Part shown: piece by piece, positions 1 to 46,593 of the stretch
Position numbering within the stretch: position 1 is the first letter of the stretch
Layout: each line of letters starts with the position of its first letter
Assembly (NCBI RefSeq): GCF_030269645.1
Contig: NZ_BSTR01000018.1
Location: 1-64,000, forward strand
Length of the DNA stretch: 64,000 nucleotides
Direction: 5' to 3'
Source of the DNA: Actinokineospora sp. NBRC 105648
GTDB taxonomy: Bacteria > Actinomycetota > Actinomycetes > Mycobacteriales > Pseudonocardiaceae
Translations under genes and position numbers: made by a program
The notes under the pieces: generated by a model
What the model was told of the DNA's origin: nothing
The model's database searches: none
Seen by the model: only the letters and a program-made list of their open reading frames with translations

Positions 1-136
1 CTCGATCTAGTGAACTCGCTTCGTGTGGGGCCCCTAGAGCACCGCGGTGGAGAGAAAAGGGCAGGTAAGGGCATCCCCACCCACGGCAAGTTTAGCGGCA
101 CTCTCCCCCCACACGAAGCGAGTCCACCAGATCGAG
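1..136. repeat. Structured repeat element, copy A (candidate ncRNA or hairpin mobile element)
   Basis: Arms 1-30 and 107-136 form an almost continuous ~30-bp helix; 17 consecutive pairs close the inner part (14-30 with 107-123). An inner helix pairs 36-45 with 95-104, with two mismatches. An apical hairpin GGTGG/CCACC encloses a purine-rich loop. Conserved motifs are GGGGCCCCTAG (27-37) and GCAAGTTTA (86-94). The window starts exactly at the left arm, so the left flank is unseen. Copy B shares another 49 identical bases to the right (137-185). No credible ORF is present. Transcription and strand are unknown. Confidence 0.8.
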
Positions 137-158
137 CATCCGTAGCGGGACTTGCGTT

Positions 159-410
159 CCAGCGGGGTCGGCCTCACCGCTGCGGTTTACTGGGGGGGTA
201 CGGGCTTCACTTAGGTGTCAGCGGGGTCGGCCTCACCGCTGCGGTTTGCCGGGGGACGGGACTTGCTTGGGTGCCAGCAGAGTCGGCCTCACCGCTGCGG
301 TCTGCTGGGGGGGCAGGATCCTGTTGCGTACCAGCGGGGTCGGCCTCACCGCTGCGGTCTGCTGGGGACGGGACCCTGGTCGCGTGCGGGTGGGGTCGGT
401 CTTTCCGTGC
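159..410. repeat. Tandem array of ~57-bp units, four clear copies
   Basis: A 25-base core (AGCGGGGTCGGCCTCACC followed by GCTGCGG) recurs at 161-185, 220-244, 276-300 and 333-357, with periods of 59, 56 and 57 bp. A degraded unit follows near 380-410. Most units contain the dyad CAGCGG/CCGCTG, and unit 3 also pairs CCAGCAGA with TCTGCTGG. Linkers are variable but share GGGAC/CTTG words. The core also follows copy B at 28616-28640. Units are too long and too diverged for a CRISPR, and no cas genes are nearby. Confidence 0.8.
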
Positions 411-478
411 GGGTGGGCGGATTGACGGGTGGCGCTTTGCATTCTTTAGTAGACATTGTTTCGATTCGGTTCAAAAGG

Positions 479-519
479 CAATCCCCGACTACCTTGGTGC
501 GGGCGGTAGTCGGGGATTG
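479..519 (-). terminator. Intrinsic terminator of eccC
   Basis: A perfect 15-bp stem (479-493 with 505-519) with an 11-base loop starts 15 bases past the eccC stop. Read leftward it is followed by CCTTTTG, a short U-rich run. It separates the ESX operon from the repeat array. Confidence 0.85.
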
Positions 520-533
520 TTCGTGCCGAGTTG

Positions 534-3500
534 CTATTCCGGTTGGATCCAAGCGATGTGCATGAGGGATTGGCCCACCTTTCGGCTGACCAGGGTGCCT
601 CGGCCCGGGGGGAGGGCGGACGGTTTGACCGTGCCCAGGAGGGCGCCTTCGTCCTTGCTGCCGCTCATGACGATGCCCGGGCTGGCGATCTCGCGGAGTT
701 TGCCGAGGACCGGGTCGAACATCGCGCGGCTGGCGCCGCCGGTGCGGCGGGCGGTGATGACGTGCAGGCCGACGTCCTTGGCCTGGGGGAGGAACTCTGC
801 GATGGGTTGCAGGGGGTTGTTGCCCTGGGTGGCCACCAGGTCGTAGTCGTCGACGATGACGAAGAGTTCTGGGCCCTTCCACCACGAGCGGTTGCGGAGT
901 TGGTCCTGGGTGACGTCGGGGCCGGGGAGGCGTTTGAGCATGGAGCCCCGGACGTCCTTGATCATGTCGCCCAACTGGTTCGAGGACACCGCGTAGCCGA
1001 GGAGGTGGTCGGTGTTGACGAAGCCGAGCATGGTTCGGCGGTAGTCGACCAGGATGATGACCGCTTCCTTGGGGGTGTAGCGGTCCATGATGCCGCGCAC
1101 GATGGTGCGGAGCAGGTTCGTCTTGCCCGACTCGCCGTCGGCGAAGGCGATGAAGTGGGGTTCGGCGTCGAGGTCGAGGTAGACCGGGGCGAGGTCGTTC
1201 TCGTCGACGCCGATCGGGACCAGTCTCGAGTCGCGGCGCGGGTCTTGGGCCAGGAGGTCCTCATAGCCGAGCAGTTCCGGCAGGAGTCGGACCTTCGGGG
1301 CGCCTCGGCCGCGCCAGCCTGCCTTGATCTTGGCCACGGCGTCCTGGACGCCGCCTGCGACGTCCTCGGGATTGCTCGAGCCGTCGACGCGGGGGAGGCC
1401 GGTGAGGAAGTGCAGCTTGTCGCGGGACAGGCCGCGGCCGGGGCGGCCCGCTGGGACGTTGACCGCGACTCGACGGTCCACATCGGACTCGCTGGGGTCG
1501 CCGAGGCGGAGTTCGAAGCGGGTGCCGAGCAGGTCCTTGAGCGCGGGGCGGATCTCGGCCCAGCGGTTGGCGGCCACGATGACGTGGATGCCGTAGGACA
1601 GGCCCTGCGCCGCCAGGTTGACGACCTGCATCTCCAGCGCCTCGAACTCCTGGCGGAAGTTCAGCCAGCCGTCGACGATCAGGAAGACGTCGCCGAAGAG
1701 GTCGTCCTTGATCTCGCCGCGGCGCTTGCGGTTGCGGAAGTCGGTCATCGAGTCGATGCCCAGGTCGCGGAAGCGCTGCTCCCGCTCGGTGACCAGGCCG
1801 GTCACCTCGGCGACCATCCGGCGCGCCTTGTCCGGGTCGATGCGGCCCGCGACGCCGCCGACGTGCGGCAGTCCGTCCAGTGTGCCGAGGGTGCCGCCGC
1901 CGAGGTCGAGGAGGTAGAACTGGACCTCCTCGGCGGTGTGCGTGAGCGCCATCGACATCACCAGCGTGCGCAGCAGCATCGACTTGCCCGACTGCGGGCC
2001 GCCCGCGATCGCCGCGTGGCCCGCGGCGCCGGAGAAGTCGGCCCACAGCAGGTCGCGGCGCTGCTCGAACGGCTTGTCGATGATGCCGAGCGGGATCTGC
2101 AGCCTGCCGTTGCCGTAGAACCCGACCGGCGAGAGGCCGCGGTCCTCGGTGGGCTGCAACGGCGGGAACAGCGTGTCGAGCGAGTTCGGCTCGTTGAGCG
2201 GCGGCAGCCACACCTCGTGCGCGGGCGGGCCCTGGCCGACGAGCCGGGTGACGACCACGTCGAGCTCGCTGGCCTCCTGGCCGCCCTCGGGCTTCTTCTC
2301 CTCGCGCGGCGCCTCGGCGGGCTGCTCGGGCTCCTTCGGGATCTCCACGTAGTCCGGCACGAACAGCTTCGCCCGCCGGTCGCCGCTGACCGCGGCCGCC
2401 GGTCCGGCCGCCTGCATGCCCGCGGGCCGGTACGGGCCGGACACGTAGGACGCCTTGAACCGCACCATGGTGCTGGTGTCGAACTTCAGGTAGCCCGAGC
2501 CCGGGATCGAGGGCAGCTCGAACGCGTCCGGAACACCGATGGCCGCGCGGGACTCGGCCGCGGAGAAGGTCTTGAGGCCGATCCGGTAGGACAGGTGCGA
2601 GTCGAGACCGCGCAGCTTGCCCTCCTCGAGGCGCTGCGAGGCGAGCAGCATGTGCATCTGCAGCGAGCGGCCCAGCCGCCCGATCGCGACGAACAGGTCG
2701 ATGAAGTCCGGCTTGGCCGAGAGCAGCTCGGAGAACTCGTCGACGACGATGAACAGCGCGGGCAGCGGGTCGAGGTCGGCGCCGTTCTCGCGGGCCTTCT
2801 CGTACTCCCACACGTTCTTGAAGTTGCCACCGTTCTTCAGCGCCTCCTGGCGCCGGTTCATCTCCCCGGCGAGCGCGTCCTTCATGCGGTCGACCAGGGT
2901 GAGGTCGCCCTGCAGGTTGGTGATCGTCGCGGCGACGTGCGGGGCGCTGTCCAGCCCGAGGAACGTCGCGCCACCCTTGAAGTCGACCAGGATGAAGTTG
3001 AGCGTGGTCGAGGAGTGCGTGGCCAGCATGCCCAGCACCAGGGTGCGCAGGAACTCGGACTTGCCCGAGCCGGTCGCGCCGATGCACAGGCCGTGCGGGC
3101 CCATGCCCTCCATGGCCGCTTCCTTGATGTCGAGCTCGACGGCCTGGCCGAACTCGCCGACGCCGAAGGGCACCCGGTAGCGGTCGCGCACCGGGCGCGG
3201 GCGCCAGGCCTGCTGCACGTCGAAGGTCATCGGGTCGCCCGGGATGCCGAGCAGCTCCAGCAGCGTCGGGTTGGACAGCAGCGGCTCCTCGTCGCCGGAG
3301 TCGGCGGCCGCGGCGCTGAGCCGGTACGGGGAGAGCTTGCGCGCCAACGCCTCCGCCTCGGCCACGCTCAGCGTGTCCGGCTTGGCGAACCACTCCACCC
3401 CGCTGGCGCTGCGCGCGCCCAGCCGGTCCTCCTCGACGACCAGGCGCAGGCCGCGCCGGGCGGTCAGGTTGCCCAGGCTCTCCGACAGGTCCATCAGCGT

Positions 3501-4526
3501 GACGCCGACCAGGCCCTCCTCGAGGATGATCTGCTCCTCGCGGGTGACCTCGCCGTCGTCGATGACGATCACCACGTGCGGCTGGTCGGGCTGCGGCGGG
3601 GCGTTGCGGGTGAACCGCTGCCGGTCGCGCAGCTCCTCGTCGAGCCACTGCTCGATCTGGGCCAGCGACCCGGAGATCATCCGCAGCTGGCCGATGCCGT
3701 CGACCAGGGCGGGGTGCTGGGTGTGCGGCAGCCACTTCGCCCACTCCCAGTCCGCCTTGGCCTTGCCCGCCGTGACCACGGCGACCAGTACGTCATCCGG
3801 GGTGTGGAAGGTGACCAGCTGGGCCAGCAGGGCGCGGGCCAGGCCGCGGGTGAGCTCCTTGTCGCCGGTGAGCCCGACCGCGGCGAACCCGCGCACGGCC
3901 ACCTGGATCGGCAGGTCGGGCACGATCGAGTGGGCCCGGACGAACCGGCGCAGGGCCAGCGTGGCGATCGGCTCCAGCTCGTCGACCGGACCGGTCTGCG
4001 GCGGCACCAGCCGGGTGGCCAGCCGCTGCGAGCCGCGACCGACGCGCAGGTGGCAGAAGTCGGAATCGGCCTGGCGGCGCTCCCACATCCGCCTGCTGGT
4101 GGCGATCGACCACAGGGCCTGCGGGTCCGGGTGGGTCCACTCCAGGGAGGCGCGCTGGTCGAGCGAGGCCTCGCGGGCGCGGTCGCGCATCTGGCCGAGG
4201 TAGCGCAGGTAGTCCTTGCGGTCCTCGTTCATCTCGGCCTTCTTCTGGCCGCCGCCGCGCCCGCCCATGCCGCCGGCCATCATGCCCACGGTGGACATCA
4301 GGAACATGCCGCCGAAGAGCAGGGACGTGGGGTTGCGCCCGCCCACGACGAACATGAACGCCATCATGCCCACCGAGGCCACGATCATGACCCCGGGCAG
4401 CACCTTCATCAGGATGTTGCCCGGGATGACCCTGGGCACCTCGGGCGGTGGCTCGAGGTGGACCTCACCGCCGGGCTGGCGCGGGGCGGCTAGGCGGGGC
4501 GAACGCTTGAACTGCAGCGTGCTCAC
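534..4526 (-). CDS. eccC: ESX type VII secretion ATPase EccC
   Basis: Central motor of an ESX secretion system: a membrane-anchored FtsK/SpoIIIE-family ATPase that recognises WXG100-type substrates. The 1330-residue protein is a fused EccCa-EccCb form. Two transmembrane segments lie at about residues 40-85, followed by three FtsK domains. Their Walker A lysines are K489 (GATGSGKS), K848 (GGPQSGKS) and K1135 (DGESGKT); the third loop is shortened. A DEFSELL-type Walker B follows the first. The GTG start fits because the family's N-terminal region begins there and GAGGTG lies upstream. It is followed on the right by a small membrane-protein gene on the same strand, and eccD is divergent from that pair. 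Length matches fused EccC proteins. Confidence 0.96.
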   Translation of the reverse strand: MSTLQFKRSPRLAAPRQPGGEVHLEPPPEVPRVIPGNILMKVLPGVMIVASVGMMAFMFVVGGRNPTSLLFGGMFLMSTVGMMAGGMGGRGGGQKKAEMNEDRKDYLRYLGQMRDRAREASLDQRASLEWTHPDPQALWSIATSRRMWERRQADSDFCHLRVGRGSQRLATRLVPPQTGPVDELEPIATLALRRFVRAHSIVPDLPIQVAVRGFAAVGLTGDKELTRGLARALLAQLVTFHTPDDVLVAVVTAGKAKADWEWAKWLPHTQHPALVDGIGQLRMISGSLAQIEQWLDEELRDRQRFTRNAPPQPDQPHVVIVIDDGEVTREEQIILEEGLVGVTLMDLSESLGNLTARRGLRLVVEEDRLGARSASGVEWFAKPDTLSVAEAEALARKLSPYRLSAAAADSGDEEPLLSNPTLLELLGIPGDPMTFDVQQAWRPRPVRDRYRVPFGVGEFGQAVELDIKEAAMEGMGPHGLCIGATGSGKSEFLRTLVLGMLATHSSTTLNFILVDFKGGATFLGLDSAPHVAATITNLQGDLTLVDRMKDALAGEMNRRQEALKNGGNFKNVWEYEKARENGADLDPLPALFIVVDEFSELLSAKPDFIDLFVAIGRLGRSLQMHMLLASQRLEEGKLRGLDSHLSYRIGLKTFSAAESRAAIGVPDAFELPSIPGSGYLKFDTSTMVRFKASYVSGPYRPAGMQAAGPAAAVSGDRRAKLFVPDYVEIPKEPEQPAEAPREEKKPEGGQEASELDVVVTRLVGQGPPAHEVWLPPLNEPNSLDTLFPPLQPTEDRGLSPVGFYGNGRLQIPLGIIDKPFEQRRDLLWADFSGAAGHAAIAGGPQSGKSMLLRTLVMSMALTHTAEEVQFYLLDLGGGTLGTLDGLPHVGGVAGRIDPDKARRMVAEVTGLVTEREQRFRDLGIDSMTDFRNRKRRGEIKDDLFGDVFLIVDGWLNFRQEFEALEMQVVNLAAQGLSYGIHVIVAANRWAEIRPALKDLLGTRFELRLGDPSESDVDRRVAVNVPAGRPGRGLSRDKLHFLTGLPRVDGSSNPEDVAGGVQDAVAKIKAGWRGRGAPKVRLLPELLGYEDLLAQDPRRDSRLVPIGVDENDLAPVYLDLDAEPHFIAFADGESGKTNLLRTIVRGIMDRYTPKEAVIILVDYRRTMLGFVNTDHLLGYAVSSNQLGDMIKDVRGSMLKRLPGPDVTQDQLRNRSWWKGPELFVIVDDYDLVATQGNNPLQPIAEFLPQAKDVGLHVITARRTGGASRAMFDPVLGKLREIASPGIVMSGSKDEGALLGTVKPSALPPGRGTLVSRKVGQSLMHIAWIQPE

Positions 4527-4568
4527 CGGGTGGACACCTCTTCGACTCGACGTGCGCTTGGGAGGAAA

Positions 4569-5294
4569 CTACCGAACAGCGGACCCACCGCCCGGCCGTT
4601 CGGCCGAACCGCCGCGCCCGGTGAGCACGAGCGCGGCGAGCAGCGCCACCAGGAACAGCACGCCCAGCACCAGCGGGACCGCGCCCCGGCCGGACACGGC
4701 CAGGAAGTAGACGAGCGCCGCGGACACCGCGCACACCAGGGCACCCGCGGCGAAGCGGCCCGGTCCCGCGGCCTGCCCGCTGACCAGGAACACCACGGCG
4801 GCGAGGAGGAACAGGCCACCGAACACCAAAGCCGACGGATCGTCCGGGGTGCTGAACACCTGGTGCAGGGCCAACCCGGCCGCGGCGGCCACGGCGACCA
4901 GCGGCAGCACCGAGGCGGGCCCCGATGCCCGGCGCACCAGGCTGTCGACCAGCGCGCCCGCCACGCCGACCGCGGCGAAGAACCCGGAGAAGAGCGACTG
5001 CGCGTTGTGGCCGCCCTGGTAGTACAGCAGGACCGAGATCTCGACCGAGGCGACCAGGGCCACGACACCGAGGGCGATCCGGCCCGGCAAGTCGGCGCCC
5101 GCGGCCGACCACACCAGCGCGGAGAACGCGGCGAGGTAGACCAAGCCGGGCAGCACGGCGGCGGGATGCCTGCCGGACACCACGAACATCAGCGCGCTGA
5201 CGCCGATGGTGACCAGCACGACCAGGATGGGCGCCACTTTCCGCAGCATCGACGAGTCTCGACCCGAACCGCGCGCCGGCCCACGTCCGGACAC
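4569..5294 (-). CDS. ESX-linked polytopic membrane protein with EccC-like N-terminal hairpin
   Basis: About 241 residues with roughly seven hydrophobic segments and no soluble domain. I do not recognise a named family. The first two segments resemble EccC's membrane hairpin: MFVVSGRHP here against MFVVGGRNP in EccC, with matching spacing on both sides. It lies 42 bases upstream of eccC on the same strand, so co-transcription is likely. It may be an accessory subunit packing near EccC; this is inference. The start is uncertain: TTG 5297, GTG 5294 (GGGGG upstream) and ATG 5249 are in frame. Hydrophobic, low-complexity sequence makes database assignment difficult. Confidence 0.75.
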   Translation of the reverse strand: MSGRGPARGSGRDSSMLRKVAPILVVLVTIGVSALMFVVSGRHPAAVLPGLVYLAAFSALVWSAAGADLPGRIALGVVALVASVEISVLLYYQGGHNAQSLFSGFFAAVGVAGALVDSLVRRASGPASVLPLVAVAAAAGLALHQVFSTPDDPSALVFGGLFLLAAVVFLVSGQAAGPGRFAAGALVCAVSAALVYFLAVSGRGAVPLVLGVLFLVALLAALVLTGRGGSAERPGGGSAVR

Positions 5295-5363
5295 CAACTA
5301 GCACCCCCGCTGGTCGACTTCTGGCGAACCGCCGCATCCGGCGATACCGGTGCGGCCATACTA

Positions 5364-5394
5364 GGACCGATCCCGGTCAGCCAGGGGTCGGTCC
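5364..5394. promoter_or_regulatory. Inverted repeat in the eccC-side/eccD divergent promoter region
   Basis: GGACCGATCCC (5364-5374) and GGGGTCGGTCC (5384-5394) pair at 10 of 11 positions across a 9-base spacer. It sits between the divergent starts of the membrane protein and eccD, and could be an operator or a leader hairpin. Confidence 0.45.
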
Positions 5395-5403
5395 GAGCAG
5401 ACC

Positions 5404-5412
5404 TGTGGACAA
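5404..5412 (-). promoter_or_regulatory. DnaA-box-like site upstream of eccD
   Basis: TTGTCCACA on the minus strand is identical to the high-GC actinobacterial DnaA box consensus. The surrounding 13-mer CTGTGGACAACTC recurs at 14307-14319 upstream of eccE. Function as a DnaA site or as a shared ESX regulatory site is unproven. Confidence 0.4.
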
Positions 5413-5428
5413 CTCGAGGGAGCAGGCG

Positions 5429-6820
5429 GTGGCAACGGGTACGACCGTGTTCAGCCGAGTGACAGTGGTCGCGCCGAGGACACGCATCGACGTCGCGCTC
5501 CCGGCCGACGTCTCGGTGGCCGACCTGCTGCCGATGCTGCTGGAGATGGCCAAGGAGACCACCCCGGACGGCGGCGCCCGGCACGGCGGCTGGTGCCTGG
5601 CCAAGCTCGGCGACAACCCGCTCGACCCGAGTCGCACGCTGGGTTCGCTGGGCATCGTCGACGGCGACATGCTGCAGCTGCGCAAGCGCGCGGAGAACCC
5701 CCCGCCCCCGCTCTACGACGACGTCGTCGACGCCATCGCCGAGTCGACGCCGGACAGCTACCGGCCGTGGACCAAGGAGACGGCCAACCGCATCGGCCAC
5801 ATCGCGGGCGCGCTCGCCCTGCTGACCGCCGCCTTCGCGGTGCTCATGGCGGGACCGCTGTTCGGCGGCGGCAACGTCGGCCCGGCCGTCACCGCCGGTG
5901 CCGGGGCGGTGATCGCGGTCGCGCTCGGCGCGGTGATCGCGCGCGCCTACCAGGCCCGCACCACCGGCGTGCTGATCGCGGCGGCGGGCGGGCTGCCGCT
6001 GGCGTTCGTCAGCGGCCTCTCGATCGTGCCCGGTGAGCCCGGCCGGGCCAGCCTGCTGCTGGCCTCGGCGCTGGTGCTCATCGTGTCCTCGGCGTCGATC
6101 ATGCTGATCGGCGCGGGCATCACCACCTTCGTCGCCGCCGGGACCGCCGCCACGCTGGGCGTCATCGCGTTCGCGGTGGCCACGCTGATCGCGCACCCGG
6201 CCGAGGGCATCGCGGCGGGGACGGTCGCGTTCGCGCTCGGCGCGCTGTCGGTGCTGCCGAGGCTGACCATCCAGCTGGCCAGGCTGCCGCTGCCCAACGT
6301 GCCCGGCAGCGCCGAGGACCTCAAGGAGGACACCGGTTTCCCGGACTACCGCTCGATCGAGCGGCGCGCGGGCCTGGCGCACGAGTACATGACCGGCATG
6401 ATCATCGGCTGCGGGGTGGCCGCGGCGATCGGCGCGGTCGTCTCGGCGGGCTCGCCGAAGGTGTGGGGCGTCATCCTGGGCGTCGTGGCCACCGTGGTGC
6501 TGCTGCTGCGCGCGCGGACCTACGCCAACGGCAGCCAGGCGATCGCCCTGCTGGGCACCGGGATGCTGGCCGCGGCGGGCATCGTGCTCGGCTGGCTGTT
6601 CAGCGCCGACAACCTGCAGCGGCTGCTGTGGGTGTTCGGCGCGCTGGTGCTGCTGGCCGCCGGGGCGCTGGTGCTCGGCGTGATCTTCCCCGAGCAGCGC
6701 TTCTCACCGCCGTTGCGGCGCACGGTGGAGATCATCGAGGCCATCTGCATCGCCGTGGTGCTGCCGCTCGCGCTCGCGGTGATGGACCTGTACTCGACGC
6801 TGCGCCACGTGACCTTCTAG
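5429..6820 (+). CDS. eccD: ESX integral membrane channel subunit EccD
   Basis: Forms the membrane pore region of the ESX complex. Residues 1 to about 85 make a ubiquitin-like (YukD) domain, including TVVAPRTRIDVALPADVSV and a GDMLQLRK end. About eleven transmembrane segments follow, ending near LYSTLRHVTF. GTG 5429 is chosen over GTG 5405 because AGGGAG lies seven bases upstream and the family's N-terminus begins with a short MATGTTVFSRV-like stretch. This gives 463 residues, normal for EccD. The stop touches the mycP ribosome-binding site (AGAGGG), so the two genes form one operon. Confidence 0.94.
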   Translation: MATGTTVFSRVTVVAPRTRIDVALPADVSVADLLPMLLEMAKETTPDGGARHGGWCLAKLGDNPLDPSRTLGSLGIVDGDMLQLRKRAENPPPPLYDDVVDAIAESTPDSYRPWTKETANRIGHIAGALALLTAAFAVLMAGPLFGGGNVGPAVTAGAGAVIAVALGAVIARAYQARTTGVLIAAAGGLPLAFVSGLSIVPGEPGRASLLLASALVLIVSSASIMLIGAGITTFVAAGTAATLGVIAFAVATLIAHPAEGIAAGTVAFALGALSVLPRLTIQLARLPLPNVPGSAEDLKEDTGFPDYRSIERRAGLAHEYMTGMIIGCGVAAAIGAVVSAGSPKVWGVILGVVATVVLLLRARTYANGSQAIALLGTGMLAAAGIVLGWLFSADNLQRLLWVFGALVLLAAGALVLGVIFPEQRFSPPLRRTVEIIEAICIAVVLPLALAVMDLYSTLRHVTF

Positions 6821-6830
6821 AGGGTTGGAC

Positions 6831-10664: not shown

Positions 10665-10666
10665 GG

Positions 10667-27590: not shown

Positions 27591-28217
27591 TCAGCGGGGT
27601 GACGTGGCCAACAGGGCCGCCAGGCCCAACAGGACGACGCCGGTACCGCGGTCGATCCGGCGGTGCGCCCGCCCGCTCATCCGCACCACCCGCACCACGG
27701 CGCCGATCCCGACGTAGATGCTGCCCGCGGCCAACTCCGCGACCAGGTACACCGCGCCGAGCAGGAGCACCTGCCCGGCGACCGCGCCGCGACCGGGGTC
27801 GACGAACTGCGGGACGAACGCGGTGAAGATCAGCACGGCCTTGGGGTTGGTGACCGCGACCAGGAACTCCTTGCGCGCCAGGGCGAGCAGCGTCGGCGCC
27901 GGGGTCAGGTCCAGGTCGGCCTCGGGGGCGGGGCCCGCGCGGAAGCTGGTGTAGAGGATGCGGCCGCCGAGCCAGAGCAGGTAGGCGACACCGACCCACT
28001 TGATCACGGTGAGCGCGGTCTCGGAGGCGGCCAAGAGGCTGCCGAGACCGGCGGCCACGGCCGCGATGAGCAGGGCGAACCCGGTGAGCCTGCCGAAGAG
28101 GGCGGCGACACCGCGGGCGGTCCCGTAGCGCATGCCGTGGTGCATGCCGAGCAGGTTGTTGGCGCCCGGGGTCATAGCGACCAGGAACGCGGCACCGAGG
28201 AAGACGAGCAGCCACAT
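27591..28217 (-). CDS. LysE/RhtB-family amino-acid exporter
   Basis: 208 residues, about six transmembrane segments. The family signature is at the start (FLGAAFLVAMTPGANNLLG) and in the middle (VAYLLWLGGRILYTSF; FLVAVTNPKAVLIFTAFVPQF). Substrate cannot be predicted: lysine, threonine, homoserine or others are possible. ATG 28217 is preferred over 28235 because AGGA lies nine bases upstream and most family members begin at this helix. It occupies the position between rplO and secY where the spc operon is normally continuous, so it looks like an insertion. Confidence 0.9.
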   Translation of the reverse strand: MWLLVFLGAAFLVAMTPGANNLLGMHHGMRYGTARGVAALFGRLTGFALLIAAVAAGLGSLLAASETALTVIKWVGVAYLLWLGGRILYTSFRAGPAPEADLDLTPAPTLLALARKEFLVAVTNPKAVLIFTAFVPQFVDPGRGAVAGQVLLLGAVYLVAELAAGSIYVGIGAVVRVVRMSGRAHRRIDRGTGVVLLGLAALLATSPR

Positions 28218-28373: not shown

Positions 28374-28465
28374 GTTGCCCGGGTTAGAAGCGGGGGCTCG
28401 ATCTAGGAGTCGCCTTGGTGTTGCCGTCTTCGTTGCCCGGGTTAGAAGCGGGGCTCGATCTAGTG
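28374..28465. repeat. Direct repeat containing the left end of element B
   Basis: GTTGCCCGGGTTAGAAGCGG plus CTCGATCTAG occurs from 28374 and again from 28432, a 58-bp period. The second copy continues into element B; the first is a truncated left arm. This looks like a partial tandem duplication of the element's left boundary. Confidence 0.7.
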
Positions 28466-28591
28466 AACTCACTTCGTGTGGGGCCCCTAGAGCACCGCGG
28501 TGGTGAAAAAAGGGCGGGTGAAGGGCATCCCCACCACACGGCAAGTTTAGCGGTGCTCTCCCCCCACACGAAGCGAGTCCACTAGATCGAG
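28454..28591. repeat. Structured repeat element, copy B (candidate ncRNA or hairpin mobile element)
   Basis: Same architecture as copy A. Outer arms 28454-28483 and 28562-28591 pair at about 28 of 30 positions. The inner helix AGAGCACCGC/GCGGTGCTCT (28489-28498 with 28550-28559) is perfect here, whereas A has two mismatches. The apical hairpin is GTGGTG/CACCAC (28500-28505 with 28532-28537). GGGGCCCCTAG and GCAAGTTTA (28541-28549) are conserved. It lies between rplO and the LysE gene, 237 bases upstream of the LysE start. The 49 bases to its right match copy A exactly. Confidence 0.85.
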
Positions 28592-28615
28592 CATCCGTAG
28601 CGGGACTTGCGTTCC

Positions 28616-28706: not shown

Positions 28707-28870
28707 GGAAACGTTTTCGTTCGTCTCTTCCTCTTTCTGACTCTTCTCTGTCTTCCTCCCCTCGCCCTCTCCCTCTGGTCCTCTCCCTCTGGCTCTCTCC
28801 CTCTGGCCCTCTTTCTCCCCCTCTCCTCCTTCCTCTCCCCTCTTCCTCCCTTCCTCCTCACTTCTCCCGC
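28707..28870. repeat. Polypyrimidine (polypurine) tract
   Basis: About 165 bases of the plus strand are almost entirely C and T, with a 14-base unit based on CTCTCCCTCTGG repeated three times around 28765-28806. No gene has coding signal here: the Glu/Arg/Lys-rich frame on the minus strand is a composition artefact. The tract could adopt H-DNA, and any leftward read-through from rplO would give a purine-rich RNA. Confidence 0.8.
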
Positions 28871-28949: not shown

Positions 28950-29393
28950 CTAGACCTTCGTGGCGGTGCCGCCCGCCGCGGTGAGCTTTTCGGCCGCGCT
29001 GGCCGAGAACTTGTCCGCGGTGATGTCGAGCTTGACGCCGTTGAGGTCGCCGTTGCCCAGGACCTTGACCAGGGAGCCCTTGCGGACCAGCCCGGCGTGG
29101 ACCAGGTCGGCGATGCCCACGGTGCCGCCGTCGGGGAAGGCCGTGGCCACGTCGCCGACGTTGACGACCTGGTACTCGACCCGGAAGCGGTTCTTGAAGC
29201 CCTTGAGCTTCGGGAGCCGCATCTGGATCGGCATCTGGCCACCCTCGAAGCGCGCGGGGACGTTCTTGCGCGCCTTGGTGCCCTTGGTACCGCGACCGGC
29301 GGTCTTGCCCTTGGAGCCCTCACCGCGACCGACGCGGATCTTGTCGGTCTTGGCGCCGGGAGCCGGACGCAGGTGGTGGATCTTGATAGCCAT
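28950..29393 (-). CDS. rplO: 50S ribosomal protein L15
   Basis: Large-subunit assembly protein near the central region of 23S rRNA. 147 residues: [20 protein letters not shown] and the Gly-rich [15 protein letters not shown] segment, then [23 protein letters not shown] 29393 overlaps the rpmD stop by one base (TGATG), so the two are coupled. It is the last gene of the S10-spc run here; a strong hairpin follows instead of secY. Confidence 0.98.
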
Positions 29394-38684: not shown

Positions 38685-38931
38685 GGTGGCTTGCCGTTCC
38701 TCTTCATCGTTGCGATCTTCGGCAGACCTGTCAGGCCGAACCGCGCCGCTTCCCTGTTCACAAGTTTCGATCCACCGCTCCCGGTCCACGCGGTCGGGCG
38801 TGTCGCGCCCGCTTCGCATACCGGTCCCTTGGACGAGATCCTTGGGCTAGCCGTGCATCTTCTTTTCTCAGGACCATGGATCCTGACTCCCGTGCGAGGG
38901 CGGCCGGTAGTGGAACTCGAACCGGCCGCCC
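38685..38931 (-). promoter_or_regulatory. rpsJ leader/upstream region with a stem-loop
   Basis: The tuf-rpsJ gap has no gene. An 11-bp stem GGGCGGCCGGT/ACCGGCCGCCC (38898-38908 with 38921-38931) with a 12-base loop lies 214 bases upstream of rpsJ. It may end read-through from tuf or form part of the S10 leader. I could not place a convincing promoter. Confidence 0.5.
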
Positions 38932-38984
38932 TGCGACGAGCAACCCATAAAGGATGCCACACCGGGGTGCGGCGATCCAAATCG

Positions 38985-39012
38985 GGGTGGCCGAGCACAC
39001 TCGGCCACCCCG
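38985..39012 (-). terminator. tuf terminator
   Basis: A perfect 12-bp stem (38985-38996 with 39001-39012) with a four-base loop, starting eight bases past the tuf stop. ATTTGG follows in the leftward direction, a weak U run. Confidence 0.8.
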
Positions 39013-39019
39013 ACGGGGA

Positions 39020-40213: not shown

Positions 40214-40340
40214 TTGATTGTCCTCCTGGACTTGTACTTTCCGCCTGACCGAGTGTTTTCGGATGGCGGCTGCTGGGTCAATTGTGCGGACCCGGGGAGT
40301 TCCCGGAGAGCCCGCACCTACTGTGCGGAGCTCCGGGGCT

Positions 40341-40362
40341 CAGTCCCGCGCACGCGGGACTG
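40341..40362 (-). promoter_or_regulatory. Stem-loop between fusA and tuf
   Basis: A 9-bp stem CAGTCCCGC/GCGGGACTG (40341-40349 with 40354-40362) with a GCAC loop, 11 bases past the fusA stop. There is no U run. It may be a partial terminator or processing site giving tuf its own expression level. Confidence 0.55.
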
Positions 40363-40373
40363 GGAGTGCTTGG

Positions 40374-42473
40374 TCACTCCCCCGTAGCCTTTGCGATGAT
40401 CTCCTTGGCGACGTTCGCGGGAACCTCGCTGTAGGAGTCGAACACCATCGAGTAGTTGGCGCGGCCCTGGGTCTTCGACCGCAAGTCACCCACATACCCG
40501 AACATCTCCGAGAGCGGCACCAGCGCCTTGACGATGCGGGCCCCGCTGCGCTCCTCCATGGCCTGGATCTGGCCGCGGCGGGAGTTCAGGTCGCCGATGA
40601 CCTCACCCATATAGTCCTCGGGCGTGGTCACCTCGACCGCCATCAGCGGCTCCAGGATCACCGGACCGGCCTTGCGGGCGGCCTCCTTGAGCGCCATGGA
40701 GCCTGCGACCTTGAACGCCATCTCGGAGGAGTCGACCTCGTGGTAGGCACCGTCGAGCAGCGTCAGCTTCAACCCGACCAGCGGGTATCCGGCGAGCACA
40801 CCGTACTGCATGGCGTCCTGGGCACCGGCGTCGACCGACGGGATGTACTCCCGCGGCACGCGGCCGCCGGAAACGGCGTTGTCGAACTCGTAGAGCACGC
40901 CGTCGGTGGTGGCCAGCGGCTCGAGCTTGATGACGACCTTCGCGAACTGGCCCGACCCACCGGTCTGCTTCTTGTGGGTGTAGTCCAGCTTCTCGACCGT
41001 CTTGCGGATGGTCTCGCGGTAGGCCACCTGCGGCTTGCCGATGTTCGCCTCGACCTTGAACTCGCGGCGCATCCGGTCCACCAGGATGTCCAGGTGCAGC
41101 TCGCCCATGCCCGCGATGATCGTCTGGCCGGTCTCGTCGTCGAGGTGCACCTTGAAGGTGGGGTCCTCTTCGGCGAGCTTCTGGATCGCGGTGCCCAGCT
41201 TCTCCTGGTCGGCCTTGGTCTTGGGCTCGATGGCGACCTGGATGACCGGGTCCGGGAAGGTCATCGACTCGAGCACGATCGGGTTGGCCGGGTCGCTCAG
41301 GGTCTCACCGGTGGTGGTGTCCTTGAGCCCGATCACCGCGTAGATGTGACCGGCGATGGCCTCGTCGACCGGGTTCTCCTTGTTGGCGTGCATCTGGAAG
41401 ATCTTCCCGATGCGCTCCTTGCGGTCCTTGGTCGAGTTGATGACCGGGCTGCCGCTGGGAACCCGGCCCGAGTACACCCGGACGTAGGTGAGCTTGCCGA
41501 AGAACGGGTGCGTGGCGATCTTGAAGGCCAGCGCGGAGAACGGCTCGGTCATCTCGGGCTTGCGGAAGGCGGGGGTCTCCCCGTCCTGCAGCGTGCCCTC
41601 GACCGGCGGGAGGTCGAGCGGGGAGGGCAGGTAGTCGATCACGGCGTCGAGCATGGGCTGCACGCCCTTGTTCTTGAACGCCGAACCGCACAGGATCGGG
41701 TACGCCGAACCGGCGGTCACGATCTTGCGGATACCGCCCTTGATCTGCTCGACGCTGAGCTCCTCGCCGCCGAGGTAGAGCTCCATGAGCTCGTCATCGG
41801 TCTCGGCGACGGCCTCGATGAGCGCCTCGCGGAACTCCTGGGCCTTCTCCAGCAGGTCGGCCGGGATCTCCTCGACGGAGTAGTCCTCGCCCTTCTTGAC
41901 CTCGCCGCGCCAGGTCAGCGCGCGCATCTCGACCAGGTCGACGACACCGATGAAGTCGCTCTCGGAGCCGATCGGGATCTGGATCGGGAGCGGCTTGGCA
42001 CCCAGGCGCTCGGAGATGGTGCGGATGGTGAAGTAGAAGTCCGCGCCCAGCTTGTCCATCTTGTTGACGAAGCAGATCCGGGGGACGTCGTACTTGGTGG
42101 CCTGCCGCCAGACCTGCTCGGACTGGGGCTCGACACCTTCCTTGCCGTCGAACACCGCGACCGCGCCGTCGAGCACCCGCAGGTTGCGCTCCACCTCGAC
42201 GGTGAAGTCGACGTGCCCGGGGGTGTCGATGATGTTGATCTGGTGGTCTTTCCAGTAGCAGGTGGTGGCGGCCGAGGTGATCGTGATGCCCCGCTCCTGC
42301 TCCTGCTCCATCCAGTCCATGACCGCGGCGCCGTCGTGCACCTCGCCGATCTTGTAGCTGATCCCCGTGTAGAAGAGGATCCGCTCGGTCGTCGTGGTCT
42401 TGCCCGCGTCGATGTGGGCCATGATCCCGATGTTGCGGACCTTGGCCAGGTCGGTCAGCACGTCGAGTGCCAC
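40374..42473 (-). CDS. fusA: Translation elongation factor EF-G
   Basis: GTPase driving ribosomal translocation and, with RRF, recycling. 699 residues, all five domains. G1 [10 protein letters not shown]2 RGITITSA, G3 DTPGHVDF and G4 NKMDKLGA are intact; domain IV carries the SGRGQFA-type [15 protein letters not shown] segment. Fusidic-acid sites could not be fully assessed by eye. It follows rpsG by 72 bases, with a stem-loop between. Confidence 0.99.
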
Positions 42474-42519
42474 GGGTGTTTCCCCTGTCCTTGATGCAGA
42501 GCTACGGCGCCGCTGCAGC

Positions 42520-42541
42520 CCCGACCGGGCGGTCGGGGCCG
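42520..42541 (-). promoter_or_regulatory. Stem-loop between rpsG and fusA
   Basis: A 9-bp stem GCCCCGACC/GGTCGGGGC (42520-42528 with 42533-42541), four-base loop, four bases past the rpsG stop and 46 bases before the fusA start. No U run follows. Confidence 0.55.
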
Positions 42542-42545
42542 GTTG

Positions 42546-43016
42546 TCACCAGCGGTAGTGGGCGAAGGCCTTGTTGGACTCGGCCATCTTGTGCGTGTCC
42601 TCGCGGCGCTTGACGCTGGCGCCAAGGCCGTTCGAGGCGTCGAGCAGCTCGTTCATCAGCCGCTCGATCATGGTCTTCTCGCGGCGGGCCTGGGAGAAGG
42701 AGACGAGCCAGCGCAGCGCGAGCGTGGTGGAGCGGCCCGGCTTGACCTCGATCGGCACCTGGTAGGTGGCGCCACCGACGCGGCGGCTCTTCACCTCGAT
42801 GGTGGGCTTCACGTTGTCGAGCGCGCGCTTGAGCGTGACCACGGGGTCGGTGCCGCTCTTGTCCCGGGCACCCTCGAGGGCGCCGTAGACGATGCGCTCG
42901 GCGACGGAGCGCTTGCCGTCCTTGAGCACCTTGTTGATCAGCTGGGTGACCAGCGGCGAGCTGTACACCGGGTCGGAGATCAGCGGCCGCTTCGGGGCCG
43001 GTCCCTTACGGGGCAT
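42546..43016 (-). CDS. rpsG: 30S ribosomal protein S7
   Basis: Nucleates assembly of the 30S head; in E. coli it represses the str operon. 156 residues: [40 protein letters not shown] and [20 protein letters not shown]. It starts one base after the rpsL stop, so the two are coupled. Confidence 0.98.
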
Positions 43017-43017
43017 G

Positions 43018-43392
43018 TCAGCTCTTCTCCTTCTTCGCGCCGTAGTGGCTGCGGGCCTGCTTGCGGTTCTTCACGCCCTGCGTGTCCAGCGAGCCGCGGA
43101 TGATCTTGTAGCGGACACCCGGGAGGTCCTTCACGCGGCCACCGCGGACGAGCACCATGGAGTGCTCCTGCAGGTTGTGACCCTCGCCAGGGATATACGC
43201 CGTGACCTCGATGCCGCTGGTCAGCTTCACGCGCGCGACCTTGCGCAGCGCGGAGTTCGGCTTCTTCGGGGTGGTGGTGTACACGCGAGTGCACACGCCA
43301 CGCCGCTGCGGGCTCCCCTTGAGAGCCGCAGTCTTCTGCTTGGCGACCTTGTCCTGGCGGCCCTTGCGGACCAGCTGCTGGATCGTGGGCAT
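43018..43392 (-). CDS. rpsL: 30S ribosomal protein S12
   Basis: Decoding-centre protein. 124 residues from ATG 43392; the open frame further upstream belongs to the leader. The streptomycin-relevant lysines in [13 protein letters not shown] and [11 protein letters not shown] are wild-type, so no classical rpsL resistance mutation is present. It heads the str operon (rpsL-rpsG-fusA-tuf) behind a leader of about 270 bases and a strong promoter. Confidence 0.98.
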
Positions 43393-43574
43393 AGACCGGC
43401 TTTCTCCTGTTAACGCTCGACACCCGAACCGGGGGCCGAAGGCACTGTGTACTTGCGGTTCCTGCTGCTCCGCCCGTCCCCCGAGGTCGGGCGTGTCGCC
43501 CGAACTCGCGGCGCCCGTGCGGGATCGAATCATCCCAACGGGGTTCGAGAGGAACTCCGGCGTGTCTGGCAGGA

Positions 43575-43657
43575 GGCCGGTAGCCGGCCATCGTCTGAAC
43601 GATCACCGAAACCAGACCGCGCGGCACAGGCACACGGACCGACCCGACATGGGTCGG
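43575..43657 (-). promoter_or_regulatory. Structured leader of the str operon
   Basis: Between the promoter and rpsL the leader contains CCGACCC/GGGTCGG (43639-43645 with 43651-43657) close to the predicted 5' end, then GGCCGG/CCGGCC (43575-43580 with 43584-43589). No ORF of coding quality lies in the 395-base rpsL-43788 gap. Confidence 0.45.
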
Positions 43658-43669
43658 GCACGAGTAGCA

Positions 43670-43699
43670 AAGATACCTCGGGCGTGGGTCGGAGGTCAA
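43670..43699 (-). promoter_or_regulatory. Promoter of the str operon
   Basis: On the minus strand TTGACC (43694-43699) is followed by an 18-base spacer and TATCTT (43670-43675), a good sigma-A-type match. Transcription would begin near 43663, giving a leader of about 270 bases before rpsL. Confidence 0.65.
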
Positions 43700-43723
43700 A
43701 ACGGGGTACCCCTGGAACGCGCC

Positions 43724-43752
43724 GAGGCGGCCCCCACTCAGGGGACCGCCTC
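43724..43752 (-). terminator. Terminator of the DUF4082-type gene
   Basis: A 12-bp stem with one mismatch (43724-43735 with 43741-43752) and a five-base loop, 35 bases past the stop of the 43788 gene. It lies just upstream of the str promoter and would insulate it. Confidence 0.7.
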
Positions 43753-43787
43753 GCCCAACGCGTCACCGACCGTGGTGGTTCCCCGGG

Positions 43788-44684
43788 TCAGGGGGTCAGC
43801 TGGAAGTGCGGGATGACCCAGTAGTAGCTGCCGCCCCAGGTCTGGTCCGGGAAGCCGCCGAGCTCGGGGACGGGTCCCTCGTCGGCGTAGTGGTAGACGC
43901 CCGCGTCCGGGGGTGAGGAGAAGGGGGCCTCCACGGTCCCGGCACCGGTGAAGTGCCCGTTCGTCACCGCGTAGTGGCCGTACGGGGTGAAGTAGGAGAC
44001 CACGTAGGTCTCCCCCGGCACGACCGGGACGGGCTCGGGGAAGTAGAAGAACCGCGACCAGGGCGACTCGTGGGCCTCGGCCAGCAGCACGCCGTCGGCC
44101 GACCAGACGCGCGCGAGGAGGTCGTCACCCGGGTAGTAGTTGCCCAGCGTGACACCGGTGATGTAGCCGGCGCGGTCGACCTGGACCTTCTGGCCGACCT
44201 CCACCGGCCGGGCGTCGGAGTCCACCGCGACGTAGTCCCGGTCGCCGCGCAGCGGCTGCCAGAACTCGCACCGGGTGCACGGCAGCGGCTTGAGCGGACC
44301 GCTGCCCGCCGCGTAGCGGGTGTGCCTCCAGGGCGACTCGACCTCGGTCGCGCTGCGCGCCCGGGAGACGACGTCCACCTGACCGGTCGTGGTGGCGGTG
44401 TGGATGTAGCTCCACTCGCCGGTGCCCTGGGCGAGTTGCCAGGTGTGGCCGCCGTCGACGGAGACGTCCACCGCGGTGACCGCGGCCGGGCCGTCGTCGG
44501 AGGTGCTGTAACCGGCGATCATGATCGGGACGTTGAGCGGCAGCACGTTGCCGTCGGTCGGGAAGACGACGAACGAGCTCGGGTGCACCTCGGCGCTCGC
44601 GGCGCTCGCGGCGCTCGCGGCGCTCGCGCTGAGGACGGGGACGAGGAGCACGGCGGCGGCGGCCGCGGCGAGTCTGTGGAACAC
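43788..44684 (-). CDS. Secreted protein with Ig-like and DUF4082-type domains
   Basis: 298 residues from GTG 44684, with GGAGG five bases upstream. A signal peptide (FHRLAAAAAAVLLVPVLSAS) ends in a run of Ala-Ser residues encoded by four 9-bp repeats. A first beta domain (AVDVSVDGGHTWQLAQGTGE) resembles the Ig-like region of molybdopterin oxidoreductase dimerisation or bacterial Ig modules. The second (VDRAGYITGVTLGNYY, PVPVVPGETYVVSYFTPYGH) fits DUF4082, a sugar/cell-wall-associated module. No enzyme domain is visible. It is probably an extracellular binding protein. Confidence 0.82.
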   Translation of the reverse strand: MFHRLAAAAAAVLLVPVLSASAASAASAASAEVHPSSFVVFPTDGNVLPLNVPIMIAGYSTSDDGPAAVTAVDVSVDGGHTWQLAQGTGEWSYIHTATTTGQVDVVSRARSATEVESPWRHTRYAAGSGPLKPLPCTRCEFWQPLRGDRDYVAVDSDARPVEVGQKVQVDRAGYITGVTLGNYYPGDDLLARVWSADGVLLAEAHESPWSRFFYFPEPVPVVPGETYVVSYFTPYGHYAVTNGHFTGAGTVEAPFSSPPDAGVYHYADEGPVPELGGFPDQTWGGSYYWVIPHFQLTP

Positions 44685-44977
44685 GGTTCCTCCGGTCAGG
44701 CCGGGATGGCGGGTGGGTCACCGCGGTCTCACCGCACTGCGGCCACGAGCGGGCCAAGAGCAGGATCGCGAGCCCGCGCGACACAGGTCCTCCGGGGAGA
44801 GGGTGGCCCCGACGTCGACCGCACGGTATCGGTCAGGGCACCGGGCCCGAATGTTCCAGACGGGTGACAACCGCGCGGGCGGACCAGGCTGGGTGACCTG
44901 CAACACTTGGCGGCCAACGAATTTCGTCTGTCCATTTGGGATTAACGAAGTCGTCCCGGGAGGGCTACCATTCCAAG

Positions 44978-44989
44978 ACGACCGGTCGT
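44978..44989. promoter_or_regulatory. TetR operator upstream of the TetR gene
   Basis: Perfect 12-bp palindrome ACGACCGGTCGT in the shared 17-mer AAGACGACCGGTCGTAT. It abuts TATACT (44989-44994), a likely -10 placed seven bases before GTG 45001, so the regulator probably represses itself from a leaderless transcript. Confidence 0.75.
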
Positions 44990-45000
44990 ATACTTCCGGC

Positions 45001-45591
45001 GTGGCGCGACCGAGACTGAGCGAGGACACCCGGCGACGGCTGCTCGAGGTGAGCGCGGCGCAGTTCCTCCGGCAGGGCTACCACGGCACCGGGATCAAGG
45101 ACCTGCTCGACCGGGTGGAGATCCCCAAGGGCTCGTTCTACAACTACTTCCCGAGCAAGGAGGCCCTCGGCGTGGCGACCATCGAGTACACCGCCCGCTG
45201 CACCGCCGCCGCGCTGACCAGTGCGTTCGACGGGGCGCCGGACCCGCTCTCGGGGGTGCGCGCGTTCTTCGAGTCGCTGCTGGCCCACTTCGAGGACAAC
45301 GACTTCACCGGCGGCTGCCTGCTCGCCAACCTGGCGTGCGAGCTCGACGACAGCGAGACCTGCCGGGTGGCGATCTCGGTCGCGTACCGGCAGTGGCGCG
45401 ACGGCCTGGCGGGACCGCTGGCCGCGGCGCAGGCGGCGGGCACCGTGCGCGACGACGTGCCCGCCGAGGAGTTGGCGGACACGCTGATCGAGGCGTGGGA
45501 GGGCGCGGTGATCCGGATGAAGGTCGACCGGTCCGCGGCCCCGCTGCGGCGGTGCATGCGCCTGCTGCTCGACGGCTACCTGCGGCCGTGA
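45001..45591 (+). CDS. TetR/AcrR-family transcriptional repressor
   Basis: 196 residues from GTG 45001. The N-terminal HTH is RRRLLEVSAAQFLRQGYHGT then GIKDLLDRVEIPKGSFYNYF, followed by a helical ligand-binding domain of the TetR_C_6 type (FEDNDFTGGCLLANLACELD). There is no ribosome-binding site; TATACT seven bases upstream suggests a leaderless mRNA. A palindromic operator precedes both this gene and the downstream SDR gene. The inducer is unknown, but a small electrophilic or aromatic compound is plausible for this group. Confidence 0.92.
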   Translation: MARPRLSEDTRRRLLEVSAAQFLRQGYHGTGIKDLLDRVEIPKGSFYNYFPSKEALGVATIEYTARCTAAALTSAFDGAPDPLSGVRAFFESLLAHFEDNDFTGGCLLANLACELDDSETCRVAISVAYRQWRDGLAGPLAAAQAAGTVRDDVPAEELADTLIEAWEGAVIRMKVDRSAAPLRRCMRLLLDGYLRP

Positions 45592-45621
45592 GCGGCTCTC
45601 TTTTTTTGTGGCCGTTCGAAG

Positions 45622-45633
45622 ACGACCGGTCGT
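45622..45633. promoter_or_regulatory. TetR operator upstream of the SDR gene
   Basis: Second exact ACGACCGGTCGT, within the same 17-mer as upstream of the TetR gene. TATCAC follows it immediately, as TATACT does at the first operator, so both promoters share operator/-10 geometry. It lies 19 bases before ATG 45652. Confidence 0.75.
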
Positions 45634-45651
45634 ATCACCCTGGGGGTAGTC

Positions 45652-46380
45652 ATGGTTCGGACAGTGGTCATCACAGGCGCGAGCAGCGGCATCGGCCTCG
45701 ACGCCGCCCGCGGGTTCGCCGAGCGGGGGGACAACGTAGTGCTCAACGGCCGCGACCCGGACCGGCTCGCTGCGGCCGCCGCGGGGCTCCCGGCTGAGCG
45801 GGTGGCGGCGGTGGTGGGCGACATCGGCGACCCGGGGACCGGGGAAGCGCTGGTCAGCGCGGCCCTTGCGGCGTTCGGCGGGGTCGACGTGCTGGTGAAC
45901 AACGCCGGGGTGTTCGAGACCAAGCCGTTCCTGGAGGTGACCGAGGAGGAGCTGGACCGGTACCTGTCGACGAACCTGCGCGGCACCTACCTGGTCACCC
46001 AGGCCGTTGTGCGGCAGATGGTCGCGCAGGGGCGTGGGGGGTGCGTGATCAACGTGGGGACGGTCTTCGTCACGCAGGCGAAGACGGGGGTGCCCGCGTC
46101 GGCGCCGTTGGCGAGCAAGGGCGGGGTGCACGCGCTGACGGTGAGCCTGGCGGCTGAGCTGGCGCCGATGGGGATCCGGGTGAACACGTTGGCGCCGGGG
46201 GTGATCCGGACGCCGTTGTTCGCCGGGGCGGACATGGGGGAGCTTGGCGGGTGGGCGCCGATGGGGCGGGTCGGGTCGGTTGGGGAGACGACCCATTCAC
46301 TGCTCTATCTGGCTGATTCGGCTTTTACTACTGGGCATGTGTTGGCGCTTGATGGTGGGTATTCGGTGGGGCGGGGCTAG
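45652..46380 (+). CDS. SDR-family protein lacking the catalytic tyrosine
   Basis: 242 residues with a Rossmann fold: TGASSGIG for nucleotide binding, NNAG at 83-86 and a C-terminal GGYS end. K156 of the YxxxK motif is present (ASKGG), but position 152 is proline instead of tyrosine, and T137 stands at the usual catalytic serine (NVGT). NAD(P) binding may be kept while classical proton relay is lost. It is controlled by the adjacent TetR through a shared operator. Some TetR-linked SDRs may form a subfamily with such changes; I cannot confirm this here. Confidence 0.9.
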   Translation: MVRTVVITGASSGIGLDAARGFAERGDNVVLNGRDPDRLAAAAAGLPAERVAAVVGDIGDPGTGEALVSAALAAFGGVDVLVNNAGVFETKPFLEVTEEELDRYLSTNLRGTYLVTQAVVRQMVAQGRGGCVINVGTVFVTQAKTGVPASAPLASKGGVHALTVSLAAELAPMGIRVNTLAPGVIRTPLFAGADMGELGGWAPMGRVGSVGETTHSLLYLADSAFTTGHVLALDGGYSVGRG

Positions 46381-46450
46381 CTGCTTTTGGTGCTGGGTGT
46401 GCCTTGGGGCTTGTTTGGGGTTTGCTGCGTCGGGGTTTGCTCGGGCGGGG

Positions 46451-46593
46451 TGCTGGATTGGGTGGAGTGGCTTTGCCCGGGGCCCCTAGGGGCGATCGTC
46501 GTGGGAAAAGCGGGTGGGAAAGGGAGCCCCACGACCACAGCAAGTTTACGATCGCCCCTCCCCCCAGACAAAGCCACTCCACCCAATCCAGCA
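46451..46593. repeat. Structured repeat element, copy C (candidate ncRNA or hairpin mobile element)
   Basis: Outer arms pair over about 30 bp from 46451 inward, the first 25 bp without mismatch, but with a sequence different from copies A and B. The inner helix (46488-46499 with 46548-46559) is a perfect 12 bp and also has new sequence. The apical hairpin CGTGGG/CCCACG (46500-46505 with 46528-46533) encloses AAAAGCGGGTGGGAAAGGGA. GGGGCCCCTAG (46479-46489) and GCAAGTTTA (46540-46548) are retained 61 bases apart, as in copy B. It lies between the SDR gene and rpoC. Confidence 0.85.

Follow-up and report, generated by a model that had tools for sequence, protein, structure and literature searches.

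High-copy palindromic repeats are best known from proteobacteria, many of them probably being mobilised there by RAYT transposases. ERIC, BOX and RUP-type repeats are imperfect intergenic palindromes of about 100-150 bp that probably spread non-autonomously. Ms1 / 6S-type RNA, a long hairpin RNA of actinobacteria, comes from a single gene at a conserved place. In a study of REP and BIME elements (PMC3733652), the REP measures 20-40 bp and carries a tag, GTAG or CGTC, at one of its ends. REPs and BIMEs are there high-copy, palindromic and intergenic, lie downstream of genes and mainly in convergent and unidirectional gaps, form pairs of opposite orientation, and are proposed to act as RNA. According to the same study, the REPs of two species lie mostly within 20 bp of the stop codon, and CGTC REPs are without a dedicated transposase. 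The preference for convergent and unidirectional gaps and the inverted dimers are found in both PMC3733652 and PMC6006769.

We compare with these systems an element present in three copies in the window, that is, the whole stretch of 64,000 bases analysed (bases 1-64000 of contig C18; copy A is therefore at a contig end). In the list below, "minus" gives the RNA strand of each copy, and the bit scores are those of model R2, which, being built from other species' copies only, recovers the copies of this genome independently of their sequence.

1-137, minus: copy A, truncated at the contig end (sequence, fold, R2 at 117 bits, this match being cut at its 3' end)
107-136 and 1-30, minus: outer stem arms of copy A, with the AGGGG bulge at 31-35
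95-104 and 36-45, minus: inner stem arms of copy A, with the loop motif (GCAAGTTTA on the plus strand) at 86-94
534-4526, minus: FtsK/SpoIIIE-family gene, behind which copy A lies (Pfam)
28375-28406, no strand: partial repeat made of the left flank of copy B (plus) and its first outer-stem bases (ggctcgatctag), the rest absent (boundaries by eye)
28453-28592, minus: copy B (sequence, fold, R2 at 139 bits)
28562-28591 and 28454-28483, minus: outer stem arms of copy B, with the AGGGG bulge at 28484-28488
28550-28559 and 28489-28498, minus: inner stem arms of copy B, with the loop motif at 28541-28549
28950-29393, minus, and 27591-28217, minus: rplO and a LysE-family gene, between which copy B lies, sense to both (gene calls, Pfam)
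46450-46594, minus: copy C, with different stem sequences (sequence, fold, R2 at 124 bits)
46562-46593 and 46451-46482, minus: outer stem arms of copy C, with the AGGGG bulge at 46483-46487
about 46548-46559 and 46488-46499, minus: inner stem arms of copy C, with the loop motif at 46540-46548
45664-46380, plus, and 47019-50918, minus: short-chain dehydrogenase gene and rpoC, the convergent genes between which copy C lies (gene calls, Pfam)

The original prediction described three copies with a shared outer helix, inner helix and apical hairpin, and these are borne out by the sequence, by shuffled folds and by R2, which makes no further match in the window at E<=0.01. Folded as single strands, copies A, B and C reach -88.4, -91.2 and -106.2 kcal/mol on the minus strand (z -9.9 to -11.4) and -67.9, -80.2 and -93.2 kcal/mol on the plus strand (z -6.3 to -9.0); in each of these six cases (three copies, two strands) none of 200 dinucleotide shuffles folds as stably. 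The two motifs it took as nearly invariant, GGGGCCCCTAG and GCAAGTTTA, are exact in all three copies, with match lengths of 68, 70 and 70 bases. The truncation of copy A at the contig end and the minus strand as the selected strand had been missed. Pfam confirms six window proteins (FtsK/SpoIIIE, LysE, L15, SecY, short-chain dehydrogenase and RpoC), and copy B is within a ribosomal-protein gene series, with secY further on.

Several minor features lie close to these copies. A long CT-rich tract fills 28720-28860, between copy B and rplO. Copy A is adjoined by a 57-base tandem repeat (152-367; 3.8 copies of a unit with CCAGCGGGGTCGGCCTCACCGCTGCGG). This tandem repeat may accompany the element: of 317 loci, 46 have its 16-base core without mismatch, and the ones listed among them are from this genome. 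The tRNA-Ala that ARAGORN places at 798-887 on the plus strand, inside the FtsK/SpoIIIE-family gene, is probably a false call.

Read on the RNA strand, the element is about 145 bases long and has an outer stem of 30-32 bp, an inner stem of 10-14 bp and an apical hairpin. The AGGGG bulge occupies the 3' side of the junction, directly before the CCCC of the outer stem, and the loop motif (UAAACUUGC in this genome) lies between the inner stem and the apical hairpin. By inspection, the outer stem is present in all 38 folded copies. Across 39 copies from 15 species the mean column identity is 64%, and the columns that vary little or not at all include the bulge Gs and the next Cs. Within the genus the loop motif drifts; it is exact in the copies of Umezawaea endophytica, which were retrieved with a pattern requiring it, while the stem arms vary among the copies of one genome yet stay complementary. 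The element is similar to ERIC, BOX and RUP in size, in being palindromic and in being intergenic, but the hosts differ. With its two long stems, bulge and loop motif in about 145 bp, it departs from the tagged REP of 20-40 bp of PMC3733652, and no constant GTAG or CGTC stands at the stem foot in the flanks inspected by eye.

Outside the hairpin, several species (L072, L081, L088, L183-L199, L223-L240) show by eye a loose, recurring ACGCAAC-rich box, located about 15-40 bases upstream of the stem as read along the RNA strand, and the repeated unit may therefore exceed the hairpin. In the Umezawaea copy of L152, near 5896-5966, other sequence interrupts right after the loop motif; we take it to resemble an insertion-sequence end.

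The element is not limited to the three copies first described. Exact matches to GGGGCCCCTAG-N(40-70)-GCAAGTTTA number 177 in the 8.43 Mb draft genome (82 forward, 95 reverse), and the reversed-pattern control gives none in this genome. The repeat breaks the draft assembly: at least nine contig ends (the starts of C13, C18, C30, C31 and C77; the ends of C14, C16, C26 and C28) have a copy within 60 bases. The exact core occurs in this genome only, none of the 60 relatives searched having it, and model R1 matches all 16 genomes of the genus at E<=0.01. Twelve congeners have 21-150 R1 matches each (150 being the maximum of candidates scored), and G003 and G010 have 4 each. Because the single match of G012 is a plain 62-nt hairpin, 15 of the 16 genomes carry the element, and G012 is a genus member apparently without it. 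Wrong-strand matches of a congener search were removed by E-value.

Beyond the genus, R1 matches 8 of 150 family genomes in 2 of 46 genera and R2 matches 14 of 397 order genomes in 6 of 85 genera, with one weak match in another family; both are lower bounds, because these searches score few candidates per genome. Folds were inspected at ten loci of the R2 order search, at one G098 locus and for one G014 variant. The second genus matched by R1 is probably Umezawaea, because all four G126 loci examined carry the arm of U. endophytica. Among named organisms at least 29 stretches match the pattern, and all those listed belong to Umezawaea endophytica. Plasmids and phages give no blastn match to copy B, and viral contigs no match to the exact motif. 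In six genomes (up to 18 copies each) the likeness of copies is 0.80-0.96 within a genome versus 0.48-0.70 between genomes, a difference that reflects lineage-specific amplification or concerted evolution.

Double changes occur in 16 of 40 predicted pairs among 47 copies of this genome and in 32 of 38 pairs among 36 copies from 14 other species. In the latter set 98.3% of the cells are standard pairs, the double-change cells number 303 where shuffles give 74.7 (sd 9.2), and covariation scores 0.675 versus at most 0.106 when the partners are slid. These counts are made on an alignment (A4) that is fitted by R1 and hence leans towards structure, because the MAFFT alignment (A3) misplaces the inner stems. 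That stem sequences turn over between species with compensation, under selection on structure, is strongly supported. The original prediction had read its compensatory differences in this way, a reading now backed by the 303 double-change cells as well as by the G.U excess and the sense bias given below.

The two strands are not equivalent. Non-Watson-Crick pairs that are A.C on the plus strand are G.U on the minus strand, so the minus strand of the window is the selected one. The RNA strand has 219 G.U versus 4 A.C pairs (114 versus 4 in 44 distinct stems) in a set of 92 copies that were selected by the motif, without those within 60 bases of a locus end, and aligned on Watson-Crick pairs alone. 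In a larger set of 252 copies from 15 genomes the numbers are 524 versus 22 (301 versus 20 in 143 distinct stems); the test was repeated on the 92 copies because the detector of the larger set scores G.U above A.C. The larger set also requires GGGGCCC and misses variants such as GGGGTCCC. Where both transition alleles stand opposite a fixed stem partner, 19 position-cases keep G.U and 5 would give A.C. Among the copies of this genome, transition-variable columns of C/T and of A/G type number 14 and 17, respectively, for the 5' flank, 11 and 4 for the 3' flank, and 10 and 4 for the core; there may be a C/T mutational skew, and it is smaller than the asymmetry in the stem.

This wobble asymmetry speaks against double-stranded DNA as the selected form and against palindrome correction alone, and it fits RNA or one DNA strand. 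Template-switch correction of quasi-palindromes is a known process, and long, near-perfect arms with a fast sequence turnover would be expected of a DNA palindrome that is kept perfect by template switching between its arms, with no selection on structure. Such correction, however, gives Watson-Crick pairs and is strand-blind, so that it cannot yield 219 G.U versus 4 A.C, and the bulge and the loop are conserved though unpaired. The strand asymmetry largely refutes this explanation, which we consider extremely improbable.

The main rival to an RNA places the same constraint on a single-stranded DNA hairpin, with G.T tolerated, that is recognised by an HUH (Y1) transposase of the REP/REPIN-RAYT or IS200/IS605 type. 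It would accommodate the strand specificity of the hairpin and its constant unpaired motifs, the fixed spacing of the inverted pairs, and the high copy number, intergenic location and convergent excess that PMC3733652 reports for REPs. The Y1/RAYT transposase (PF01797) is absent from this genome, however, in a search that is positive in 5 of 14 control genomes, and this separates the element from the REP/RAYT system. A replication-strand bias is likewise absent in two complete genomes, where 15 of 35 (p=0.50) and 17 of 40 (p=0.43) copies are co-oriented with the fork, with the origin taken from dnaA and the terminus assumed opposite. The sense bias of single copies, to which we now turn, is not predicted by a transposase-recognised DNA hairpin, and we regard this explanation as possible but doubtful.

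Gene calls were made with a codon-usage finder trained on this genome and applied to the other species too. With these calls, 151 of the 252 copies lie between convergent genes, and 85 in tandem gaps (53 sense, 32 antisense; p=0.03); divergent gaps and locus ends account for 8 copies each, and 4 of the 252 overlap a called gene. As background, these loci contain 526 tandem gaps, 159 convergent ones and 138 divergent ones (45, 36 and 19% by length), a background that is biased because the loci were chosen for containing copies. Single copies in tandem gaps are 35 sense versus 11 antisense (p=5e-4). Further loci give 11 to 5 in Umezawaea, 2 to 1 in G006 and 1 to 3 in G014, and all single-copy sets pooled give 49 sense to 20 antisense (p=6e-4). 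Being intergenic, in convergent and tandem gaps, in inverted pairs, at high copy and palindromic, the element resembles REP, BIME and REPIN as the cited sources describe them. The distance behind the stop codon of the same-sense upstream gene, however, has a median of 198 nt in this genome, in contrast to the REPs that lie mostly within 20 bp (PMC3733652); for the other genomes the median is 256 nt.

A very stable hairpin, located behind genes and between convergent genes, is also what one would expect of a plain bidirectional terminator, or of a barrier to 3' exonucleases, that had spread through the genome by copying and had no specific partner for its bulge or loop. But a terminator stem does not need a constant bulge and loop, the copies inspected have no U-run after the stem, and the distance to the stop codon is long. 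Copy B, moreover, is inside a ribosomal-protein gene series that continues to secY. We judge a plain terminator or barrier to be quite unlikely.

We compare next the places of the element between species. Behind rpoC, the place of copy C, none of 15 congeners has the element in the 1.5 kb examined. Behind rplO, the place of copy B, 2 of 15 congeners have an element in the same gap and a third has one a gene further on. Gain of places was compared in two close relatives that are separate species, G014 (40 R1 matches) and G010, the closest relative of G014 by the rpoC stretch (98.3%). Ten places of G014 queried in G010 give 7 usable matches, 5 of them orthologous on both sides; L306 and L307 are orthologous on one side only, which weakens the count of gains. 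R2 finds the element at none of the 7 matched places in G010, with one weak match of 26 bits elsewhere in L308. The original prediction had proposed looking for empty sites in relatives and for flanking target-site duplications. Candidate empty sites are present: at L305, L309 and L304 the neighbour genes abut or overlap in G010, and in G014 they are parted by 518, 457 and 270 bp, made up of the element and other, partly minisatellite-like sequence. At these three junctions a gain in G014 would be the simpler direction. Duplications of a fixed length, on the other hand, are not seen at three G014 insertions, where the bordering repeats found by eye are about 3, 8-9 and 28 bp. At L308 the flanks meet in G010 with a net difference of about 137 bp, near the element size, and a loss by palindrome deletion is possible there. 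At two gene junctions of G014 (L276 and L278), the extra DNA includes GC-rich minisatellite-like sequence beside the hairpin.

RNA-like constraint on one strand together with mobility, and the sense orientation behind genes, would also be expected of a bacterial SINE, that is, of a folded RNA that is reverse transcribed and inserted. We consider such retro-mobility very unlikely, however: RVT_1 reverse transcriptase is found in 3 of the 16 genus genomes, 12 of the 15 carriers being without it, and neither a fixed duplication nor an A-tail is seen at the G014 insertions. RVT_1 is rejected as a shared mobiliser for its presence in 3 of 16 genus genomes only. A recurrent neighbour gene was sought by clustering 580 proteins near copies; the largest cluster (11 proteins) consists of ABC-transporter ATPases, and no candidate partner appears among the clusters with at least three members. 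Near copies in L002, L003 and L152 there are three transposase-like proteins; L002 and L003 overlap, which leaves two places.

Among catalogued families, the Rfam search of the window gives no family at the gathering score, in keeping with the original prediction, which had matched the element to none. Lax Rfam searches of six loci and one window stretch give only sub-threshold matches, the best being to a microRNA-precursor model at 34.9 bits versus a gathering score of 168, and we reject them all as chance. The element shares covarying stems and constant internal motifs with the structured RNAs of Rfam, and differs from them in that none matches at threshold and that its copies change place between species. 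Ms1 / 6S-type RNA differs in the same respect, the element being in many copies at changing places. With MITEs it shares a short, non-coding sequence, high copy number and place polymorphism, but its copies within one genome do not share terminal repeats, and at the three G014 insertions a target duplication of fixed length is not seen. A structured RNA, a hairpin element of MITE or REP type and a protein-binding DNA structure had been offered as options at the outset. Two of these that had been set against each other both find support, one in the strand-specific, RNA-like selection and the other in the mobile-repeat behaviour (likeness within genomes, differences of place), and a simple MITE with terminal inverted repeats is disfavoured because the arms differ among the copies of one genome yet stay complementary. 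We file the element as a variant of interspersed palindromic repeats outside any named family. Searches of open-access literature, a scope that most subscription journals fall outside, show no description of it, and it is probably a giant-hairpin family of Pseudonocardiaceae not previously described.

Combining this information, we tentatively favour, at a little short of an even chance, a family of non-autonomous mobile repeats with a REP/BIME-like distribution that is selected as a folded RNA at gene 3' ends, where the hairpin would be either tolerated or put to use. The place differences and the within-genome amplification suggest mobility in trans, and the wobble bias with the sense bias of single copies suggests selection as a transcribed RNA. 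The repeat would be gained at new intergenic places, mostly behind genes, by a putative trans-acting machinery, and would amplify separately in each species. Transcripts off the upstream gene would then include, from one strand only, a hairpin RNA about 145 nt long, and its constant bulge and loop would be bound by a putative protein or cut by a double-strand RNase. The hairpin may in this way mark 3' ends, protect them, and keep both read-through and antisense RNA low where genes converge. The mobiliser, the transcription, the binding protein or nuclease, the RNA function and any benefit are parts that we infer.

Several results weigh against this mobile, RNA-selected repeat family. A single-stranded DNA that tolerates G.T wobbles could show an equal strand asymmetry, and the excess of C/T over A/G variation in the 3' flank and core of this genome's copies may reflect some mutational skew. 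No mobiliser is found by PF01797 in this genome, by RVT_1 in the genus or among the neighbour clusters, nor is a fixed target duplication seen at the G014 insertions. The copies are far behind the stop codon, the small single-copy set of G014 is reversed, and paired copies are without sense bias.

A bolder version, which we think unlikely, is a new class of mobile element that is selected, and perhaps also spreads, as a one-strand folded RNA. It would be a bacterial SINE-like giant hairpin colonising gene 3' ends, its stems rewritten freely and its bound bulge and loop kept fixed, adopted as a genome-wide 3'-end and antisense control in an actinobacterial clade. The element differs from the proteobacterial repeats in the much greater size of its hairpin, in its actinobacterial hosts and in the absence of a Y1 transposase from the one genome searched for it. 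Its covariation and one-strand wobble tolerance are like those of a functional structured RNA, yet it occupies different places in related species. If confirmed, the mobile repeat family would provide more than 100 natural replicates in one genome for the role of a hairpin behind genes, and a lead to a mobiliser or an RNA-binding partner.

The paired copies have an arrangement of their own. In tandem gaps they are 18 sense and 21 antisense, without a sense bias, because inverted pairs cannot show one. Among the close pairs of this genome, 79-149 bp apart, 48 of 51 have their RNA forms pointing towards each other and 3 have them pointing apart; the corresponding counts for the other genomes are 7 and 3, with 2 further pairs in the same direction. 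In the congener G005, two loci (L079, 682-1652, and L094, 692-1652) hold arrays of four hairpins spaced about 110-180 bp apart, three in one orientation and the last in the opposite one.
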